Part shown: positions 12,935 to 21,334 of the stretch, one piece after another
Layout: each line of letters opens with the position of its first letter
Position numbering within the stretch: position 1 is the first letter of the stretch
From: Chitinophagaceae bacterium
GTDB lineage: Bacteria > Bacteroidota > Bacteroidia > Chitinophagales > Chitinophagaceae
NCBI GenBank assembly: GCA_019752045.1
Contig: JAIEMP010000004.1
Coordinates: 372,001 to 436,000 of the forward strand
DNA length: 64,000 bases
Reading direction: 5' to 3'
Made by a program: the position numbers and the translations under genes
The notes under the pieces: generated by a model
What the model was told of the DNA's origin: nothing
Seen by the model: only the letters and a program-made list of their open reading frames with translations
The model's database searches: none

Positions 12935-13663
12935 TTACTTCACCTTCTTCAACAACGCCTTCGCATATTTATAATACCTGCTCTCTTTCTTCACTGCTGC
13001 AGCGTAGAGTTTTGCTTTGTCGTTTTGCTGTAAATGATATGCACTGATTGCTGCAAAGAAATTTGCATCGTCTTTATAAACAGATGCACCATTTGCAAGT
13101 TGCTCAAATAAGGGTAGCGCATCAGCATCGTTTTGTGTTTTGATCAAACTGATACCTAAGTAATACATGATTGTTGCATCATCCGGATTGGTTCTGTTCA
13201 ATTGTTGAAAAGCAGTTACTGCTTCTGCATATTTTTCATCATTGAACAATTGCGCTGCTTTGGCCAGTTCTGTTTCGTTGCCTCTGGTGATAGCACCACT
13301 CATATCATCTACCGGATAACCATCAATCGAAACTCCGGGAATCATTAAGAAAAAGATCAATGCAATGGAAGCAGCTAATGCAAGGCCGGTAACAATACGG
13401 TTCATTGAAATCACTCTGCCAGCTTTTTGTTGTTCTGCTTTACGAAAATGAGTTTGTGTAAGAGGAGTTAAGATCTTTTTCAGTTCAGGTAATGTTTGCT
13501 CTGCCTGCTGATGTTTATCAATAGTTGTTTGCAGAAAACGGAATTCTTCCAACTGCTTTTTCAATTCATCATCCACTTGGAGCTGCTGTTCAAATGCCTG
13601 CTGTTGTACAGCATTCATTTCCCCGTTGAGATAAGCACTTATATCGTCGTAACTAAAGTTCAT
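12935..13663 (-). CDS. Membrane anti-sigma factor with periplasmic TPR domain (predicted)
   Basis: 242 residues. The N-terminus MNFSYDDISAYLNGEMNAVQ followed by QQAFEQQLQVDDELKKQLEE is the zinc-less anti-sigma N-terminal helix pattern typical of Bacteroidota (Y..GEM...E...FE..L..D..L...). A single membrane helix at about residues 88-108 (IVTGLALAASIALIFFLMIP) follows. The C-terminal part (about 130-242) carries tetratricopeptide-like repeats (AAQLFNDEKYAEAVTAFQQL, TIMYYLGISLIKTQNDADAL). I infer a cytoplasmic N-terminus that holds the sigma factor encoded just upstream and a periplasmic TPR sensor. The gene lies 99 bp after the sigma gene on the same strand. Confidence 0.75.
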   Translation of the reverse strand: MNFSYDDISAYLNGEMNAVQQQAFEQQLQVDDELKKQLEEFRFLQTTIDKHQQAEQTLPELKKILTPLTQTHFRKAEQQKAGRVISMNRIVTGLALAASIALIFFLMIPGVSIDGYPVDDMSGAITRGNETELAKAAQLFNDEKYAEAVTAFQQLNRTNPDDATIMYYLGISLIKTQNDADALPLFEQLANGASVYKDDANFFAAISAYHLQQNDKAKLYAAAVKKESRYYKYAKALLKKVK

Positions 13664-13762: not shown

Positions 13763-14281
13763 TCATGGCATCAAGTCTTTAAATTGAGGGTTAAGATGTA
13801 CCAGCTCTGCCAGCTCGCCCATACAGTTACTTTTTCGCTTGCGGTAATAGGCATAGCTCATGCCTAATTCTTCAGCGATTTCTTCCTGTGGTTTTTTCAG
13901 CAGACTTTTCAGGATAACTTCTTTGCAGTTACCCATCTGTTCAAGTAAACTCATTACCAGTTGTTCACGACCTAACTGGTTAAGATGCTCATCTGCTGAG
14001 GCGTTCGCATCGCCCGGTATATTGGTATATGCCTCTTCTTCGCCATTTGTTACCACGTGCAACGAAGTTTTTTTCGTTTTATTAAAAAATTTCCGCTTGC
14101 ATACCAGAATCAGGAACGCTTCAAACGGGCAACTCAATACAAACTGTTTATCATTTGCCAGCTTATAAATATCAATCAATGCTTCCTGAAATACATCCCC
14201 TGCATCCTCTTCAATACAGCCACGGGACATCAGATAGGCTTTCATATTCGGCGCAAACCGTTGATAAATTTCACTGATCAA
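13763..14281 (-). CDS. ECF-type RNA polymerase sigma factor (start uncertain)
   Basis: At least 172 residues. Region 2 is seen in ISEIYQRFAPNMKAYLMSRG and EEDAGDVFQEALIDIYKLAN. Region 4 lies in LLEQMGNCKEVILKSLL, EEIAEELGMSYAYYRKRKSN. There is no region 3, as in ECF factors. The listed start is a TTG at 14281, but homology-like sequence continues upstream (KYIDALLTHDQRL) to a TGA at 14348-14350 with no ATG. The true start is therefore probably a non-ATG codon between 14302 and 14347. It is divergent from the PKD/CHAT operon and followed by its anti-sigma gene. It is the natural candidate to read the AGGGTAACA/TGATATACC promoters nearby. Confidence 0.82.
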   Translation of the reverse strand: MISEIYQRFAPNMKAYLMSRGCIEEDAGDVFQEALIDIYKLANDKQFVLSCPFEAFLILVCKRKFFNKTKKTSLHVVTNGEEEAYTNIPGDANASADEHLNQLGREQLVMSLLEQMGNCKEVILKSLLKKPQEEIAEELGMSYAYYRKRKSNCMGELAELVHLNPQFKDLMP

Positions 14282-14376
14282 TCGTTGATCATGTGTAAGC
14301 AGGGCATCAATATATTTCTGATCGGAGTGCAGATAATGAGCTTTGATTCAATTAAAAGTAAGATTTTTTATACTTT

Positions 14377-14409
14377 AGGGTAACAGTTTGCCAACTCTAT
14401 TGATCTGCC
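14377..14409 (+). promoter_or_regulatory. Predicted ECF promoter of the PKD/CHAT operon
   Basis: AGGGTAACA (14377-14385), 15 nt, TGATCTGCC (14401-14409). The same boxes with identical spacing precede the lipoprotein genes at 19188 and 20264. The ATG follows at 14421. Confidence 0.65.
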
Positions 14410-14420
14410 CTTATTACAAC

Positions 14421-16352
14421 ATGCAAAAAATACTGCTCCATATTTTCCTGCTCTTGCCTTTTGTTCAAACCTTTGCACAGGGCGATACTTCTGTAAAAGT
14501 TGTTCAGAAAGAAAACAAAATTTTGTTTAAACCAAACTTGCCTGCACTCACACAAATACCCGGCGCACCCAAACCGTTCTATACTTATTTATGGGATTTT
14601 GGTGATGGGCATTTCAGCACAGCAGAAAACCCTGAACATATTTATGATAAACCAGGTGATTATGAAGCCATTCTTTATGCCGTGAATAATTATGATGATG
14701 GAAAAAAACCCGGACGTAAACCAACCAAGGTTGGAATTAAGCAGGTAAACAAAACCTATTTAGCAGCAACATCTCCTGCAGAAAATAATTTCTTTAAAGC
14801 CAATGGTCATTTTGAACTGAAGTATAACTGTATGGCCAAACCCGGTGATACCATGCTGTTGATGGCCGGCTGGAAAAATGAGATGGCTGTGAATGGAAAG
14901 ATTTACCTCTTCATTAATGAAAAACAGTTTGGGCAGAACTCCTTTGATACCGCCGGTTTTCGTTTGTATCATGAAGCTGCAATGGCGAATGATAAAAATG
15001 CAATCGCTTCTGTTCGTTCATTCGATAATTTATTGTTGACCAGCAGCGGTAGTCCTTCTTCTCATTTCAAAGAGGAGAAAAAATTTGCAGGAGCAGAGAG
15101 TAAAACATTTTTAATGAACACCCTGAAGGCTTACAACAATGTATTTGCAGTTGATGTAAAGCATGCAGAAGAGCAATCGCAGTTTCTGTTTGCCAATCTC
15201 TACGTAACACCGGGAATGATTAAGGATACCAATGCAACAATTGTAATTACCGGTTTGTTTGTTCCGGATACCGGTGATGTGTATATGCATCAACTCAATA
15301 TTCCCATTGTTACTTCGCATGATCCCAATAAAATGAATTTAAAAAGCGGACGATTGAGTTACCGTACGCTCAAAAAAAATAAAGCATTGACGTATAAGAT
15401 CCGTTTTCAGAATAATGGCGAGGGCCCTGCACGAAAAATTTTGCTTGATATCAGTTTGCCATCGGCCATGGATGCAAAAACGATCCAGATCAAAGACATG
15501 TCGCCTTATTGTTTGCCATGCGACAGTGTACCAAGCCGAACCGGTTGCTGGGAGTTGATTACAACCAACGACAGTGCTGCATTTGTATTCAACGGTATTT
15601 ATTTGCCCGGCACCAATCAACAGGGTGTGGAAGATAAAGACAGCACCAAAGGATTTGTAGAGTTTGATGTACAAACAAAAAAGAAACTAGATAATCTTCC
15701 ATTCAAAGGGCGTACTGCTATTTATTTTGATAAGAACGAACCGGTGATCACCAATTTTGCAACAGGCAGATTTAAGCCCGGTTTTTCTCCCATTGTAATG
15801 GCGGGTTATGAGTTAAACCTCGGAAAGTTTGGAAACAATGACGGGATAACTGTTGGTGCCGGTATTGCCAGGCTTGCTCCGCATAAACCTTATTTTCAGT
15901 TTGAACTGTTTTTCAAGTCCATCAGCTATAATACAAGTGTAACCAGCAATGAGCCCGGTCTGGTAAGAATAGATCAAAAAGATTATGACTATCGTACAAG
16001 AACCACACGCAGTACAAATGCACTGTTGCGTTTGGGTATTGTGCCGCTGCATGTGCGTCATAACCTCAACGACATTTTTTCTGTTGGTGTGGGTTTAAGA
16101 GTAGATACAGATTTGAGCGGAACAATAAAAGATGCCAACGAGTATGTACTGTTTAATTTTAACGGACAGGCAAGTTATCCTTACAGTAATTTATCAAACA
16201 CAAAGATCAAAGGCTTTTCAAATTTCGATTTTCTTCCCTTTGCTGATCTGCAGGCAGGAAGAGTGCGTCTGGGTCCGCAGATCGGCACCCGTTATTACTA
16301 TGGCGGAAAAAACAATAGTTATCTCTATTTTTATGCATCCTGGCGCTTATAA
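14421..16352 (+). CDS. PKD-domain protein with predicted C-terminal outer-membrane beta-barrel
   Basis: 643 residues from ATG 14421 (the frame opens at a TTG, 14388, but the signal peptide MQKILLHIFLLLPFVQTFAQ starts here). Residues about 40-110 form a PKD domain (YLWDFGDGHFSTAENPEHIY, with YDKPGDYEAILYAVN), an extracellular Ig-like fold. A DUF11-like beta domain lies around residues 310-450 (TYKIRFQNNGEGPARKILLD). The last 190 residues alternate polar and hydrophobic residues with Gly turns and end in NNSYLYFYASWRL, the look of an outer-membrane beta-barrel with an aromatic C-terminal strand. Function unknown; I infer a surface-exposed sensor or adhesin part of the sigma/CHAT system. The CHAT gene follows with overlapping codons. 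Confidence 0.7.
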   Translation: MQKILLHIFLLLPFVQTFAQGDTSVKVVQKENKILFKPNLPALTQIPGAPKPFYTYLWDFGDGHFSTAENPEHIYDKPGDYEAILYAVNNYDDGKKPGRKPTKVGIKQVNKTYLAATSPAENNFFKANGHFELKYNCMAKPGDTMLLMAGWKNEMAVNGKIYLFINEKQFGQNSFDTAGFRLYHEAAMANDKNAIASVRSFDNLLLTSSGSPSSHFKEEKKFAGAESKTFLMNTLKAYNNVFAVDVKHAEEQSQFLFANLYVTPGMIKDTNATIVITGLFVPDTGDVYMHQLNIPIVTSHDPNKMNLKSGRLSYRTLKKNKALTYKIRFQNNGEGPARKILLDISLPSAMDAKTIQIKDMSPYCLPCDSVPSRTGCWELITTNDSAAFVFNGIYLPGTNQQGVEDKDSTKGFVEFDVQTKKKLDNLPFKGRTAIYFDKNEPVITNFATGRFKPGFSPIVMAGYELNLGKFGNNDGITVGAGIARLAPHKPYFQFELFFKSISYNTSVTSNEPGLVRIDQKDYDYRTRTTRSTNALLRLGIVPLHVRHNLNDIFSVGVGLRVDTDLSGTIKDANEYVLFNFNGQASYPYSNLSNTKIKGFSNFDFLPFADLQAGRVRLGPQIGTRYYYGGKNNSYLYFYASWRL

Positions 16353-18967
16353 ACAGATCATATCAATACGTTCGTTCACTGCTATTGTTAGTTAGCAGTA
16401 GCTTTTTATTTGCCTTATTTTTTTCGGGTGATGATCAGCCGGCAAACAAAGAAAACTGGCGGAATAGTTATCTGCAGAAAGATTCACTTGGTCTTTATCT
16501 GGAGAAATTATATGAGTTAACAGATGATCATCCGTTTTATTTTTCGAATAAGGCTGACTCTGTTCTGAAAACATTGTGGCGGCAGCCAATCAATGAAAGA
16601 GAGCAAACGGTATATCTCGATTTCATCCTCAATATTGCTTATCATTTATTACAACAGGGACAGGTGCCTGCATCCATCCGTTGGTATGAAACAGGTTTAA
16701 CTTTTTATCAGCAAAACAAACTCCACCAGTACGAAGCAGAAGAATTTATTCTGAAACCGCTTGGTAATAATTATGTGCGGCTGGGTGATTATGATAAAGC
16801 GGTGGCTATTCAGCAAATCGCCATTGAGCAGGCTATTAAAACAAACAAGAAAGAATTACTGGCAGCATTGTACAGCAACCTCGCCATCAGTTATTTCTGG
16901 TTAACGGATTATGCGGCTGTTCAACTGAATTGCAATAAGGGATTGCAGTTTGTTTCGTTTAATGAAACTGTTACTGGCTTATTGTACAATGTAAAAGCCG
17001 ATGCGTTTGATAAGGCTGGTATACGGGACAGTGCTTTGTTTTATAATCAACAGGCCCTTCGTTTTTTTCAATCACCCGAAGCGGCTGAAGCAGATGCAGG
17101 ATGGATTGTTTCTACATTGCGGCTTTCTTCCAAGTTATTAGCTGATCAAAAAAAGTATCAACCTGCATTGATCAAATTACAGAATGCGGAAAAGATCCTG
17201 CAACAATCTTACCCGGATACAAGACAACGGGATAAAGCGAAACTGTTGATTGAAAAAGGAAAAATGTTCTTACAGTTGAATCAAACAGACAGCAGCGCTG
17301 CAGCATTCAGAAAAGGACTGAAAAATTTTCAAATCAGTTCTACGGGATTTTTTCCTGACAATACTGTCAGCAGCCTTTACTATGGTCTGGCAAGAGCTAT
17401 GAAGTTAAACACCGACAGCAGTCTGCATTATTATCAGCTGGCTGTTGCCAATGATTATTACAGCAATCAACTTGTGAGCACATCAGCCAACAGCTTGCAG
17501 AACATTGTTGCTGTGGATGAAACCATGAACGATGAAGCGGTGCATGCATTTCATCAACAGTTTCAGCAAACAAAGAATAAAGATTATCTGCAAAAGCAAT
17601 TATGGTTGATGGAACTGTCGAAAGGGAGAAAGCTGTTGAATGAAATGAGCCGCAGCAAAGAATGGCAAACAGATACAAGCCTCCGGCAAACGCAGCAACT
17701 CTTTACTGAACTACGGTATGATTATTTGTTGCTGGCAGAAACAACAGACACCGTTCGTAAACAACAAATTGAGCAACGTATTCGTCAACAGGAGCTGGTA
17801 TTAGGATTGGAAGAGAATCGCTTTGCCCGGTTACTGAAAGAACCATCCTTTGAACAATTTATCCAAAAGCTTGCTTCAGTAACAGACTCTGCTTCGCTAT
17901 TAAGTTATTATGATGCAGGTGATTCTTTGTATTGTATGATGATCCATAAAGACGAATGGCAGAGTGCTGTTTTATCATCCACAAAATTGAGTGAATCTGT
18001 AAATAATTTTATCGGCCTTTACTTTAAAGAGGGATTAAACAGCTTCAATAATAACCCGGCTGTATATTTTACAACTGCACAGCAGTTATTAAAAACAGTT
18101 ATTCCATTTACATTCTCAACAGAGCAACTGATTTGTTCACCTGATGGCTTTCTGCATCAGCTTCCGTTTGAAGCGTTGAGTACTGATGGTAAAGATAAAT
18201 TCCTTGGGGAACAACAAGAGATCAGTTACCTGTTTTCCTTCCTGCAATATGTAAATGAAGAAACAACAGCAAACAATTCCCTACCTGTTACGGTTTATTC
18301 ATTCAAGGGGCCTCATCTTGGTTTTGCTGATCTGCCAAATGCAGCAACAGAAGCCACTTACCTCAACAAACAATTTTCAATAACTGTTGCTGATGCAGTA
18401 CAAACAACAGAACAGGAATTTGTAGAGTCCATGCAATCAAAAGCTGTTCTGCATATTGCCACACATGCAGTTGCAAACGACAGCAGCAATCAACCTTACT
18501 TGGTATTGCAAAAGAAATTCTATTTAGCACAATTACAATATACAGTTACAAATGCGCCATTGGTTGTACTCACAGCCTGTGAAACTGCAGCAGGAGAATT
18601 GCAAAAAGGCGAAGGCATTGTAAGTATCGGAAGAGCATTTATCAGCAAAGGTGTAAAAGGAGTGGTGGCCAGCAGGTGGAAAGTAGATGATGAAGTTGCT
18701 CCGATATTTGTAAAAACATTTTATGAACAGTTGAATAAAATCCATTCACCGGCTGCTGCTTTACTGCAGGCAAGAAAAGAGTATTTACAATTAACTACCA
18801 ATCTGTCGCAAAAAAACCCAATACTATGGGCAGGCTTTAACTATATGGGAGTGGAGCAGCAGATTGAGTTGAAAAAAGCTGCGGGGTTTAGTTGGTATTG
18901 GTTGTTGTTATTATTGTTGATCCCGGTGCTGTATTTTGTGAGAAGAAAAAAGCAATCATCAAAATGA
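16349..18967 (+). CDS. TPR-CHAT protease-like membrane protein
   Basis: About 860-872 residues. The caspase-like CHAT domain occupies roughly residues 600-830. The catalytic His is in AVLHIATHAVAND and the catalytic Cys in PLVVLTACETAAGELQKGEG, followed by the usual GRAFISKGVKGVVASRWKVD. The N-terminal 450 residues hold TPR-type helical repeats (NNYVRLGDYDKAVAIQQIAI, LYSNLAISYFWLTDYAAV). A hydrophobic N-terminus (SLLLLLVSSSFLFALFF) and a C-terminal helix (WYWLLLLLLIPVLYFV followed by RRKKQSSK) place the bulk of the protein in the periplasm. No ATG starts the frame: the candidates are ATA at 16349, overlapping the upstream TAA as ATAA, or TTG at 16385. Probable co-translation with the PKD/barrel gene. 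Confidence 0.85.
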   Translation: MNRSYQYVRSLLLLVSSSFLFALFFSGDDQPANKENWRNSYLQKDSLGLYLEKLYELTDDHPFYFSNKADSVLKTLWRQPINEREQTVYLDFILNIAYHLLQQGQVPASIRWYETGLTFYQQNKLHQYEAEEFILKPLGNNYVRLGDYDKAVAIQQIAIEQAIKTNKKELLAALYSNLAISYFWLTDYAAVQLNCNKGLQFVSFNETVTGLLYNVKADAFDKAGIRDSALFYNQQALRFFQSPEAAEADAGWIVSTLRLSSKLLADQKKYQPALIKLQNAEKILQQSYPDTRQRDKAKLLIEKGKMFLQLNQTDSSAAAFRKGLKNFQISSTGFFPDNTVSSLYYGLARAMKLNTDSSLHYYQLAVANDYYSNQLVSTSANSLQNIVAVDETMNDEAVHAFHQQFQQTKNKDYLQKQLWLMELSKGRKLLNEMSRSKEWQTDTSLRQTQQLFTELRYDYLLLAETTDTVRKQQIEQRIRQQELVLGLEENRFARLLKEPSFEQFIQKLASVTDSASLLSYYDAGDSLYCMMIHKDEWQSAVLSSTKLSESVNNFIGLYFKEGLNSFNNNPAVYFTTAQQLLKTVIPFTFSTEQLICSPDGFLHQLPFEALSTDGKDKFLGEQQEISYLFSFLQYVNEETTANNSLPVTVYSFKGPHLGFADLPNAATEATYLNKQFSITVADAVQTTEQEFVESMQSKAVLHIATHAVANDSSNQPYLVLQKKFYLAQLQYTVTNAPLVVLTACETAAGELQKGEGIVSIGRAFISKGVKGVVASRWKVDDEVAPIFVKTFYEQLNKIHSPAAALLQARKEYLQLTTNLSQKNPILWAGFNYMGVEQQIELKKAAGFSWYWLLLLLLIPVLYFVRRKKQSSK

Positions 18968-19060
18968 AGTAAGATGTCTGACGTCTTAACGAGGTCCTGA
19001 CATCAGTCTCCGAATATCAAAATGCCAGATGTCAGGACCTTGCAAAGATCAGACACCGGC
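18968..19060. repeat. GATGTCTGACGTC-type repeat
   Basis: Contains GATGTCTGACGTC and the inverted pair GGTCCTGACATC / GATGTCAGGACC (about 18990-19040), forming a strong hairpin after the CHAT stop codon. It may act as a terminator although no T run follows. Related TGTCTGACA sequence lies at 12363-12395 after rimM. Confidence 0.55.
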
Positions 19061-19115
19061 CTAACTACCTCATTCCCACCTCATCTGATATCAATTTAAA
19101 ATTTCTTTTCCAAAC

Positions 19116-19148
19116 AGGGTAACAATCCCTTCATGCTGCTGATATACC
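19116..19148 (+). promoter_or_regulatory. Predicted ECF promoter, lipoprotein gene 1
   Basis: AGGGTAACA (19116-19124), 15 nt, TGATATACC (19140-19148), 39 nt before the ATG at 19188. Similarity to the 20191 site extends on both sides (AAATTTCTTTT upstream, CTG before TGATATACC). Confidence 0.7.
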
Positions 19149-19187
19149 AGCACAAAACAATAATTTAAACAAACTAAAACAAGAATC

Positions 19188-19640
19188 ATGAAACAGTTAT
19201 CTGCAACAACATACATGCTTACCATCGCTATTGCTTTGCTTTTTACAGCATGTACAAAAGAAAACAATGTATCACCGGTAACAACCAATATTACATTAGG
19301 TGCTCCTGCCAACAATGCAATTATTGCCCTTGATGAAGCAAAACAAGCGGTGAATTTTAAGTGGAGTGTTGGCCCAACCAGCCCCATGGTTACTTATCGC
19401 TTACGTGTATGGCAACTGATGCAGGGACAAAACGGTACCTCAGCCATGAGAGACAATACACCTATTGTTGATCGAAATACAGATGTAAATACAATTTCTG
19501 TATTGGGAATGTTAACCGGTCCCTGTAAACCTCCTTATCTCTGCGATTTTGTCTGGAACGTAGCAATTGTTGAAAGAGATTCAAACGGCACCATCAAAGA
19601 AACCGTAGTAAGTACTACTGGAAGTTTCAGTGTGAATTAA
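19188..19640 (+). CDS. Lipoprotein, unknown function (sigma-regulon member)
   Basis: 150 residues. Lipoprotein signal MKQLSATTYMLTIAIALLFT with lipobox FTAC and Cys at about residue 22. The mature part is a single beta domain with a fibronectin-type look (VNFKWSVGPTSPMVTYRLRV, then DFVWNVAIVERDSNG). No enzymatic motif. A rho-independent terminator follows 20 nt after the stop, so it is monocistronic. The upstream motif shared with the PKD/CHAT operon suggests it is made under the same signal. I do not recognise a named family. Confidence 0.75.
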   Translation: MKQLSATTYMLTIAIALLFTACTKENNVSPVTTNITLGAPANNAIIALDEAKQAVNFKWSVGPTSPMVTYRLRVWQLMQGQNGTSAMRDNTPIVDRNTDVNTISVLGMLTGPCKPPYLCDFVWNVAIVERDSNGTIKETVVSTTGSFSVN

Positions 19641-19660
19641 TATAAACCTGTCCTTAAAGC

Positions 19661-19691
19661 AAAGCTCCGAAATTTCAGTCGGAGCTTTTTT
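19661..19691 (+). terminator. Terminator of lipoprotein gene 1
   Basis: AAGCTCCGA and TCGGAGCTT form a perfect 9-bp stem (19662-19687) followed by T residues. Confidence 0.88.
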
Positions 19692-19730
19692 ATTGCACTA
19701 ATGTATTGAGCTGATTGTTTCCTGGGTAAT

Positions 19731-20030
19731 TTGGGCTAAAGCCCATAGAAGTAGGTTTCTGTCTAACCCCGGCCTTAAGGCCGGGGTTATGAAAAGCAGG
19801 CTGATGAACGGCTTTAGCCATGATTAATGTTCTGCTCAATAAACAATGCTCTTCAAAGTCTCCAGACTTTGAAGTTTTATGCATTCCGTCTCCGACGGAA
19901 TAAAGTTGAGGAAAAGTCTGAAAGACTTTTTGCATAGCTGGCTTGGGCTAAAGCCCCTTAATCCTGGCTGCGAATAACCCCGGGCTTAAGCCCGGGGTTA
20001 TGAAGACATAGTGATAAATGGCTTTAGCCA
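19731..20030. mobile_element. Two copies of a palindromic element with hairpins between them
   Basis: Copy A (19733-19819) and copy B (19945-20029) share one design: GGGCTAAAGCCC at the left, a perfect 24-bp palindrome in the centre (19765-19788 and 19976-19999, starting AACCCCGG), and GGCTTTAGCC at the right. The right end is the inverted complement of GGCTAAAGCC at the left. Between the copies are three more hairpins: 19851-19874, 19883-19901 and 19912-19930. No open frame is present, so these are non-autonomous; REP/BIME-like elements moved by a RAYT transposase encoded elsewhere would fit, by inference. Confidence 0.7.
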
Positions 20031-20061
20031 TGATTGATTTCTACTCAATAGATTTCTACCT

Positions 20062-20093
20062 GCACAAGAGTGCGACCTGCCTACCGGCAGGCA
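20062..20093. repeat. GCACAAGAGTGCGA repeat, copy 1
   Basis: GCAC-aaga-GTGC mini-hairpin followed by GACCTGCC, then CCGGCAGG and GCAGGCGCC. A diverged copy is at 53383-53431 upstream of nuoF. Confidence 0.6.
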
Positions 20094-20190
20094 GGCGCCA
20101 ATGCAGCATAATACTAGCACAGGCCTCTGGTACCTAAAAAAATATCGCCTTTCCAGCTTATATAAAAAATTCGAAAATTTCTTTTAAAAC

Positions 20191-20223
20191 AGGGTAACAA
20201 AGTTTTACTGCCGCTGATATACC
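20191..20223 (+). promoter_or_regulatory. Predicted ECF promoter, lipoprotein gene 2
   Basis: AGGGTAACA (20191-20199), 15 nt, TGATATACC (20215-20223), 40 nt before the ATG at 20264; near copy of the site at 19116. Confidence 0.7.
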
Positions 20224-20263: not shown

Positions 20264-21334
20264 ATGAAACAGTTCCTTTTATCAGCCGTAGCACTTGCAG
20301 TCACGATCAGCTTTACTGCATGTAAAAAACAAGAAGTGAAAACTTTTGTACTGCCACATGTATTGGAAGCAAAAATGGTTTCTTTCTTTAATGCCAATGC
20401 ACCCAAGTATGAAAGCTTTACCATTGATGCATCAACCGGTGGTACATTAACTACAACCAAGGGAACAAAAATTAATTTCCCTGCAGGCATCTTTAAAAAA
20501 GCAAACGGACAAATTGTTAGCGGTAATGTAACGGTAGAAGTAAAAGATATTTTAAGCGCAAGCGATATGCTGTTGGGTAACCGCCCAACAGAAGCAAACG
20601 GACAAATGCTGGTTTCTTTTGGTGAAATGACCGTGAAGGCATCACAAAACGGAGAAGCTCTTCAATTGAAAAATGATTCTGCAAGAGTGCAGGTGCCTTT
20701 AGCTCCCAAACCTGCCAATGGTCAACTGATTCGTGAAGTACCTATGTGGAGCGGCGACTCAGCAGTTGCTTATACCATCAACGGTCATGATCATGAAAAC
20801 ACATTGGTTACATTAACACAAACCGGTTATATGCCAAGAGGTATTAACTGGAACCAGAACGGAAACTTTGCAACCAATAATAATAACGGTACAACAAGTT
20901 TTGCATTAGATAGCCTGGGTGTGTGGCGCAATTGTGATGCACTGATGAGTGATCCACGTCCTAAAACAACCGTGCTTGGTTACTTCAGCAATCATTGGAA
21001 TCCTGCAACAAGTACATCGTACATGGCAGCCGAGCCTTCGATGTTATACTTTAAAGTGAAACAGCAAAACACAATGGTGAAGTTGTATAACAAAATTGTA
21101 AACGCACCGGTTGGTAAAGAAGGATTGTTGAGTTACCAAAGCAGTTTCCCGATTGGCTTAGAAGGTACCTTCCTTGCCATTACCATCAAAGACGGAAAGT
21201 TTTATGCCGAAATGAAAGATGTAACAATTGGCGCACCTGCATCCGGTAAAACATATTTCCCTGTAACATTCGCTTTAACCGAAGTAACAGAATCCGGTTT
21301 GCTTGCTCTGATACAACAGCTGAATACAAAATAA
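20264..21334 (+). CDS. Large lipoprotein, unknown function (sigma-regulon member)
   Basis: 356 residues. Signal peptide with lipobox SFTACKKQ (Cys about residue 20). The N-terminal beta domain includes IDASTGGTLTTTKGTKINFP and GNVTVEVKDILSASDMLLGN, resembling the ZU5/autoproteolytic-type beta-sandwich of Bacteroidota surface proteins (by eye). The C-terminal half has no recognised domain (VLGYFSNHWNPATSTSYMAA, FPIGLEGTFLAITIKDGKFY). It shares its promoter region and the opening MKQ with the lipoprotein gene at 19188. It is single, with its own terminator. Confidence 0.75.
   Translation: MKQFLLSAVALAVTISFTACKKQEVKTFVLPHVLEAKMVSFFNANAPKYESFTIDASTGGTLTTTKGTKINFPAGIFKKANGQIVSGNVTVEVKDILSASDMLLGNRPTEANGQMLVSFGEMTVKASQNGEALQLKNDSARVQVPLAPKPANGQLIREVPMWSGDSAVAYTINGHDHENTLVTLTQTGYMPRGINWNQNGNFATNNNNGTTSFALDSLGVWRNCDALMSDPRPKTTVLGYFSNHWNPATSTSYMAAEPSMLYFKVKQQNTMVKLYNKIVNAPVGKEGLLSYQSSFPIGLEGTFLAITIKDGKFYAEMKDVTIGAPASGKTYFPVTFALTEVTESGLLALIQQLNTK

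Follow-up and report, generated by a model that had tools for sequence, protein, structure and literature searches.

A probable ECF sigma factor regulon in a Chitinophagaceae bacterium, with a conserved putative promoter inside the sigma factor gene

Three copies of a two-box motif in a 64,000-nucleotide stretch of the genome of a Chitinophagaceae bacterium (the window) are very probably the promoters of a regulon that is read by a divergently encoded ECF-type sigma factor. A variant with the -35 box and a partial -10 box is found on the sense strand within the sigma factor gene itself, and sequence conservation and analogy with a known system indicate that it is probably an internal promoter with a role in negative feedback. 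On balance, the cluster seems to represent a group of Bacteroidota ECF sigma factors that carry their own promoter in the coding sequence, in which DNA recognition fixes codons and limits the residues of the linker, and which are coupled to a TPR anti-sigma factor and to a regulon of exported CHAT, PKD and lipoproteins. The motifs, their spacing, their conservation, the codon-level constraint and the gene order are established from the sequence. The initial annotation had proposed a probable ECF regulon, and this part stood; it had overlooked the copy inside the sigma factor gene, the anti-sigma-like gene and the kinship of the second and third sites. The features involved are listed below, with their positions in the window.

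12935..13663, minus strand: anti-sigma-like gene, encoding an N-terminal helical domain, a probable transmembrane helix and a C-terminal TPR domain
13763..14332, minus strand: ECF-type sigma factor gene, 189 amino acids, with a proposed CTG start
14024..14056, minus strand: internal site, GTGGTAACA-N15-GCATATACC, on the sense strand of the sigma frame (GTAACA at 14053-14048, AT core at 14030-14029)
14377..14409, plus strand: site 1, AGGGTAACA-N15-TGATCTGCC, predicted -35 and -10 boxes of the PKD-CHAT operon
14421..16352, plus strand: PKD protein (PKD, DUF7619 and DUF7849 domains) with a signal-peptide-like start; homolog in 73/80 named sigma loci
16385..18967, plus strand: TPR-CHAT protein with a hydrophobic C-terminal stretch; homolog in 71/80 named sigma loci
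19116..19148, plus strand: site 2, AGGGTAACA-N15-TGATATACC, predicted promoter of lipoprotein 1
19188..19640, plus strand: lipoprotein 1, apparently a recent recruit
20191..20223, plus strand: site 3, AGGGTAACA-N15-TGATATACC, predicted promoter of lipoprotein 2
20264..21334, plus strand: lipoprotein 2; homolog in 63/80 named sigma loci

The initial annotation had placed three copies of the motif, each just upstream of a start codon, and had suggested a genome-wide pattern search. In this search, which covered both strands of the 4.16 Mb genome (4,163,991 bases), AGGGTAACA-N15-TGATNTNCC has three exact matches of 33 nt, all of them the annotated copies in the window and on its plus strand, compared with none for a reversed-pattern control. 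When up to three mismatches are allowed, 35 matches are found for the motif and 32 for the control, so the signal is carried by, and confined to, the exact form. The 9-nt second box ends 11, 39 and 40 nt before the ATG at sites 1, 2 and 3, respectively. A PKD mRNA starting from site 1 would be nearly leaderless, because the PKD start codon follows the second box after only 11 nt (14409-14421). The housekeeping-type sequence TAnnTTTG is indeed absent from the 150 nt upstream of the PKD, lipoprotein 1 and lipoprotein 2 genes. A directional two-box motif with near-fixed spacing upstream of its targets, as expected of ECF promoters, is present.

The 15-nt spacers of sites 1 and 2, which had been described as almost completely different, agree at 4 of 15 positions, those of sites 1 and 3 at 3 of 15 and those of sites 2 and 3 at 8 of 15. 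The flanks of sites 2 and 3 and the adjoining signal-peptide DNA are also alike (local score 60.5, against a maximum of 25.5 in 300 shuffles), and in the same local comparison the flanks of site 1 are unrelated to those of site 3. Judged by this similarity, sites 2 and 3 are related copies, so the three sites amount to about two independent instances of the motif. This kinship could suggest that the motif is nothing but duplicated DNA without a function, which is nevertheless extremely improbable given the unrelated flanks of sites 1 and 3 and the persistence of the boxes over two bacterial families while the spacers diverge. Lipoprotein 1 is found at this position in one of the 11 genus genomes with at least part of the cluster. 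Its mature part is similar to a domain found in larger proteins that are encoded elsewhere in its own genome and in two other genomes of the comparison (G009 and G012), so lipoprotein 1 seems to be such a domain, recently placed behind a copied lipoprotein 2 promoter and signal peptide. Between the two lipoprotein genes, at 19700-20090, GC-rich repeated pieces (for example, variants of TTAAGGCCGGGGTTATGA) are visible by eye.

ECF sigma factors that act on envelope genes have been described in Bacteroidota, such as SigP of Porphyromonas gingivalis and EcfO of Bacteroides. The gene divergent from site 1 encodes an ECF-type protein, as had been annotated. In its 172-aa TTG-started form, the protein matches the model TIGR02937 over residues 4-159 with an E-value of 7e-11 and 42.0 bits, narrowly under the curated cut-off of 42.9. 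A profile search matched four solved ECF-type sigma factors with E-values of 1.2e-4 to 3.3e-4, and a Pfam search of the protein gave no match. Homology to both sigma2 and sigma4 across a protein of about 190 aa places it among the ECF (group 4) sigma factors. The sigma factor of the window shares 84% with homologs whose titles name Lacibacter cauensis and L. luteus. The residues Y160, Y162, R164, K165 and K167 are invariant in 18/18 homologs and, from their position, would sit in the helix that recognizes the -35 box. In the sigma frame, no ATG occurs at the conserved N-terminus or upstream of it; the CTG at 14332 is the likely start. The aligned start codon is CTG in the window and in one genus ortholog (G012), TTG in the other eight genus orthologs and never ATG; such a start may keep translation of the sigma factor low.

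The motif was followed at the loci of 80 named sigma homologs, which are the best 80 among 245 relatives that two peptide patterns outside the internal site had retrieved. The region from 420 nt upstream of the sigma gene to 30 nt into it was searched for sites with at least 11 of the 13 core bases. A motif on the divergent side is present in 69/80 loci, from both Chitinophagaceae and Sphingobacteriaceae, with a spacer of 15 nt in 65 and 14 nt in four, compared with 6/80 for the other strand and 2/80 for reversed boxes in the same region. Here, too, the boxes persist while the spacers diverge, in line with the conservation limited to the two boxes that the initial annotation had described. The 65 sites with a 15-nt spacer all share GGTAACA and, within TGATAT, the letters A, T and T; this invariance is partly selected, since the same letters were scored and at most two mismatches were allowed. 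The divergent motif stands before the PKD gene or the lipoprotein 2 gene, whichever comes first in the locus. A motif reading into the sigma gene from upstream is absent from the window at up to three mismatches, and at least 11/13 core bases are reached in only 6/80 named loci, so the arrangement typical of a self-activated ECF sigma factor is not seen.

The 11 loci without a good divergent motif comprise 5/5 from Sphingobacterium, 4/4 from Parapedobacter, one from Terrimonas and one from Chitinophaga. In the five Sphingobacterium and four Parapedobacter loci, a looser pattern is matched at another place in the locus. In the Sphingobacterium loci (L163, L170, L173, L182 and L185), the motif is located approximately 4.9 kb upstream of the sigma gene, and in 5/5 it is followed at 69-72 nt by a similar 29-aa open frame; in L163, no frame of at least 60 aa follows the motif on its strand up to the end of the CHAT gene. 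Two other loci (L147 and L153) have a second motif about 1.3 kb after the sigma start, past the anti-sigma gene and before a small, exported-looking protein rich in Ala, Ser and Thr.

The presence of the motif is correlated with that of the sigma gene. It is found in 12 of 17 sigma-positive and 3 of 82 sigma-negative genomes (Fisher p 2.6e-9, across 99 genomes that are related and thus non-independent), with sigma-positive defined as having a close homolog of at least 98 bits, a cut that was chosen after the list was seen. In one of the 12 co-occurring genomes (G016), the motif is on a different contig from the sigma gene. Within the genus, the site stands before the PKD gene in 10/10 genomes for which the PKD upstream region was fetched and before lipoprotein 2 in 11/11 genomes in which this gene was seen. 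In two of these genomes (G003 and G007), the PKD operon lies 53-62 kb from the sigma gene, and the motifs remain with PKD (only 11/13 core bases) and lipoprotein 2 (12/13 core bases), below the exact pattern. The idea that these two genomes had lost the regulon along with the motif is ruled out by this distant operon with both motifs. Three of the 14 genus genomes (G005, G006 and G008) lack the sigma ortholog, the CHAT gene, a gene for a 96-aa protein and the exact motif together. In G002, a perfect motif precedes an OmpA-family gene and lipoprotein 2 is present; the CHAT contig is cut at its edge, and a search for a sigma ortholog in this genome gave none. A divergent motif is missing from 14/14 sigma paralogs of greater distance.

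Additional members of the regulon may be encoded outside the cluster. In the genome of the window, a looser pattern has five sites, which are sites 1-3, one before a 284-aa lipoprotein (lipoprotein 3) and one before the 96-aa protein. The lipoprotein 3 gene is present in two of the 14 genus genomes and preceded by the site in both, with 40 nt between the end of TGATAT and the ATG. For the 96-aa protein, this distance is 17 nt in the genome of the window. This protein is present in the same 11/14 genus genomes as CHAT, and its site has at least 11/13 core bases in 8/11 genomes with the gene, being degraded or absent in G013, G011 and G002. The sigma-less genomes G005, G006 and G008 have 3, 2 and 0 loose matches, so that a single site before the 96-aa gene could be due to chance; its recurrence before the same gene suggests more than a lone chance match, and it is kept as a trans site. 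In two loci (L218 and L220), the gene for the 96-aa protein is seen by eye between genes resembling glmS and a penicillin-binding protein gene, and the L218 copy has no Pfam match. In G002 and G035, the far sites stand before genes for OmpA-family proteins.

The co-occurrence, the near-fixed spacing and orientation over two families, the motifs staying with distant targets, the trans sites, the joint absence and the motif-less paralogs all agree with recognition by the sigma factor, as the initial annotation had supposed. The boxes could also serve a different DNA-binding regulator, possibly a dimer, as its operator, without any sigma-dependent promoter; by eye, they weakly resemble each other when inverted, and the divergent motif is missing at 11/80 sigma loci. 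Such an operator is quite improbable, as the motif is directional, stands 11-40 nt from an ATG in the window with no TAnnTTTG nearby and tracks the sigma gene, and the invariant residues Y160 to K167 lie in the presumed -35 recognition helix. The distance between the two boxes also resembles that of ECF promoters.

Directly downstream of the sigma gene, an open reading frame of more than 150 aa starts beside the sigma stop codon in 80/80 named loci. The median offset of its first ATG from the sigma stop is 2 nt (the genes overlap in 35/80 loci, and the ATG is within 35 nt in 42 and further away in three), so that most loci offer scant space for an ordinary promoter. In the window, the two genes are separated by 99 nt that contain neither TAnnTTTG nor GGTAACA; another promoter could fit in this gap. 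The protein encoded here is probably anchored in the membrane by a helix at residues 90-105, and the 50 matches listed in a fold search with its model were all TPR matches. Its match to an anti-sigma model reaches 19.5 bits, far below the cut-off of 100. From its position and this far sub-threshold profile match, the TPR protein is a candidate anti-sigma factor.

The internal site reads toward this anti-sigma-like gene and was studied in 89 distinct sigma homologs (the 80 named loci, the window and eight others). The pattern GTAACA-N17-AT is present in 89/89, compared with about four after synonymous shuffling. With the additional G, GGTAACA-N17-AT is found in 87/89, against a shuffle mean of 1.6 and maximum of 5, and among 25 representatives with less than 70% identity in 24, against 0.4 with a maximum of 5. 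On the antisense strand, GTAACA-N17-AT occurs in 1/89. Among the conserved degenerate columns listed for 18 homologs, only V94 and T95 use a single codon (GTA and ACA, respectively). In 75 homologs that were extracted from the 80, GTA and ACA are used at the site in 75/75 each, versus 220/585 and 68/444 elsewhere. Of the 175 columns examined, columns 94, 95 and 101 have A as the third base in 89/89 homologs, and column 93 has G in 87/89; these four bases correspond to the G, A, A and A in GGTAACA-N15-xxAT. Column 101 keeps its A while the residue varies (V 30, L 29, G 14, A 10 and Q 6). An origin of GTAACA from conserved V-T residues alone is ruled out by the codon use and by column 101. Outside the motif, column 88 (Lys), six codons before the internal -35 box, is AAA in 88/89 homologs. 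GTAACA is found in the linker of 0/14 more distant paralogs; one of these paralogs (L052) has GTAACA-N17-AT near the 5' end of the gene. A product consisting of sigma4 only, made from the internal site, was considered and rejected, as the alignment rows share no Met after the site up to column 170.

The internal site differs from the intergenic promoters in its second box. A TG before the AT is found in 0/89 homologs, whereas in the intergenic sites with a 15-nt spacer the T is present in 63/65 and the G in 59/65, and a T two bases after the A of this AT is found in 63/89 homologs. Given these two differences, the internal site may be a weak promoter or none. The lack of the TG is also what favors the main rival to feedback, in which the site is held by another function of the DNA or RNA, for example, as a pause or roadblock for the sigma-RNA polymerase that tunes read-through into the anti-sigma gene. 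This is unlikely, as every homolog keeps GTAACA together with the -10 box AT at the same spacing, and in Corynebacterium glutamicum a site of this kind is known to yield a monocistronic anti-sigma transcript (PMC3489674). In that species, rshA alone is transcribed from a SigH-dependent promoter located inside the coding sequence of sigH, for which a role in fast shut-down of the response has been proposed (PMC3489674). An internal site that faces the anti-sigma-like gene, the scant room for another promoter and the sigH-rshA precedent led us to read the site as a probable negative-feedback promoter.

The SigH-RshA system, in which an ECF sigma gene is followed by its anti-sigma gene (PMC3489674), resembles the layout predicted for the window, with a putative sense-strand promoter inside the sigma gene upstream of a candidate anti-sigma gene. 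It differs in that RshA is an 89-aa ZAS-domain protein of another phylum instead of a TPR membrane protein, and the boxes are GGAAta and GTT-like for SigH but GGTAACA and TGATAT here (PMC3489674). Conservation at the codon level is not treated in the passages of PMC3489674 considered here. In Bacteroidetes, a class I anti-sigma domain is found beside only 6% of ECFs, according to excerpts of PMC7406223. The cluster resembles such systems (PMC7406223) in that the sigma gene adjoins a candidate membrane-bound inhibitor, and differs from them in that the anti-sigma-like family is far below the curated cut-off. Like the TPR-CHAT protease Csx29 (PMC10028731), the CHAT protein combines TPR and CHAT domains; unlike Csx29, it is apparently exported and is encoded beside a sigma factor. 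ECF regulons and internal feedback promoters are thus known kinds of regulation. Among the matches listed in searches of the open-access literature, including one with GGGTAACA, none dealt with the sigma group, the motif or the cluster, nor with the promoter code, the targets or a persistence of the internal site at the codon level.

We infer recognition by the sigma factor, the transcription start sites, the anti-sigma function and the feedback from the sequence, and the following mechanism is proposed. RNA polymerase with the sigma factor of 13763-14332 would read promoters consisting of a -35 box GGTAACA and a -10 box TGATAT with 15 nt between them. The membrane-anchored TPR protein that is encoded directly downstream probably holds the sigma factor. 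Once freed, the sigma factor would switch on exported envelope proteins, including the PKD-CHAT operon, the lipoproteins and some unlinked genes. It would also read the weaker promoter in its own frame (14024-14056, minus strand), and the additional anti-sigma mRNA would then shut the response down.

These results define a small regulon, with a promoter code that can be tested, for a probable ECF group common to Chitinophagaceae and Sphingobacteriaceae, in a phylum in which few ECFs have a recognized anti-sigma neighbor (PMC7406223). The site within the sigma gene is a clear example of overlapping codes, in which the recognition sequence of the sigma factor appears to hold synonymous positions as well as the choice of residues. 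The same codon test can be applied to other ECF genes.
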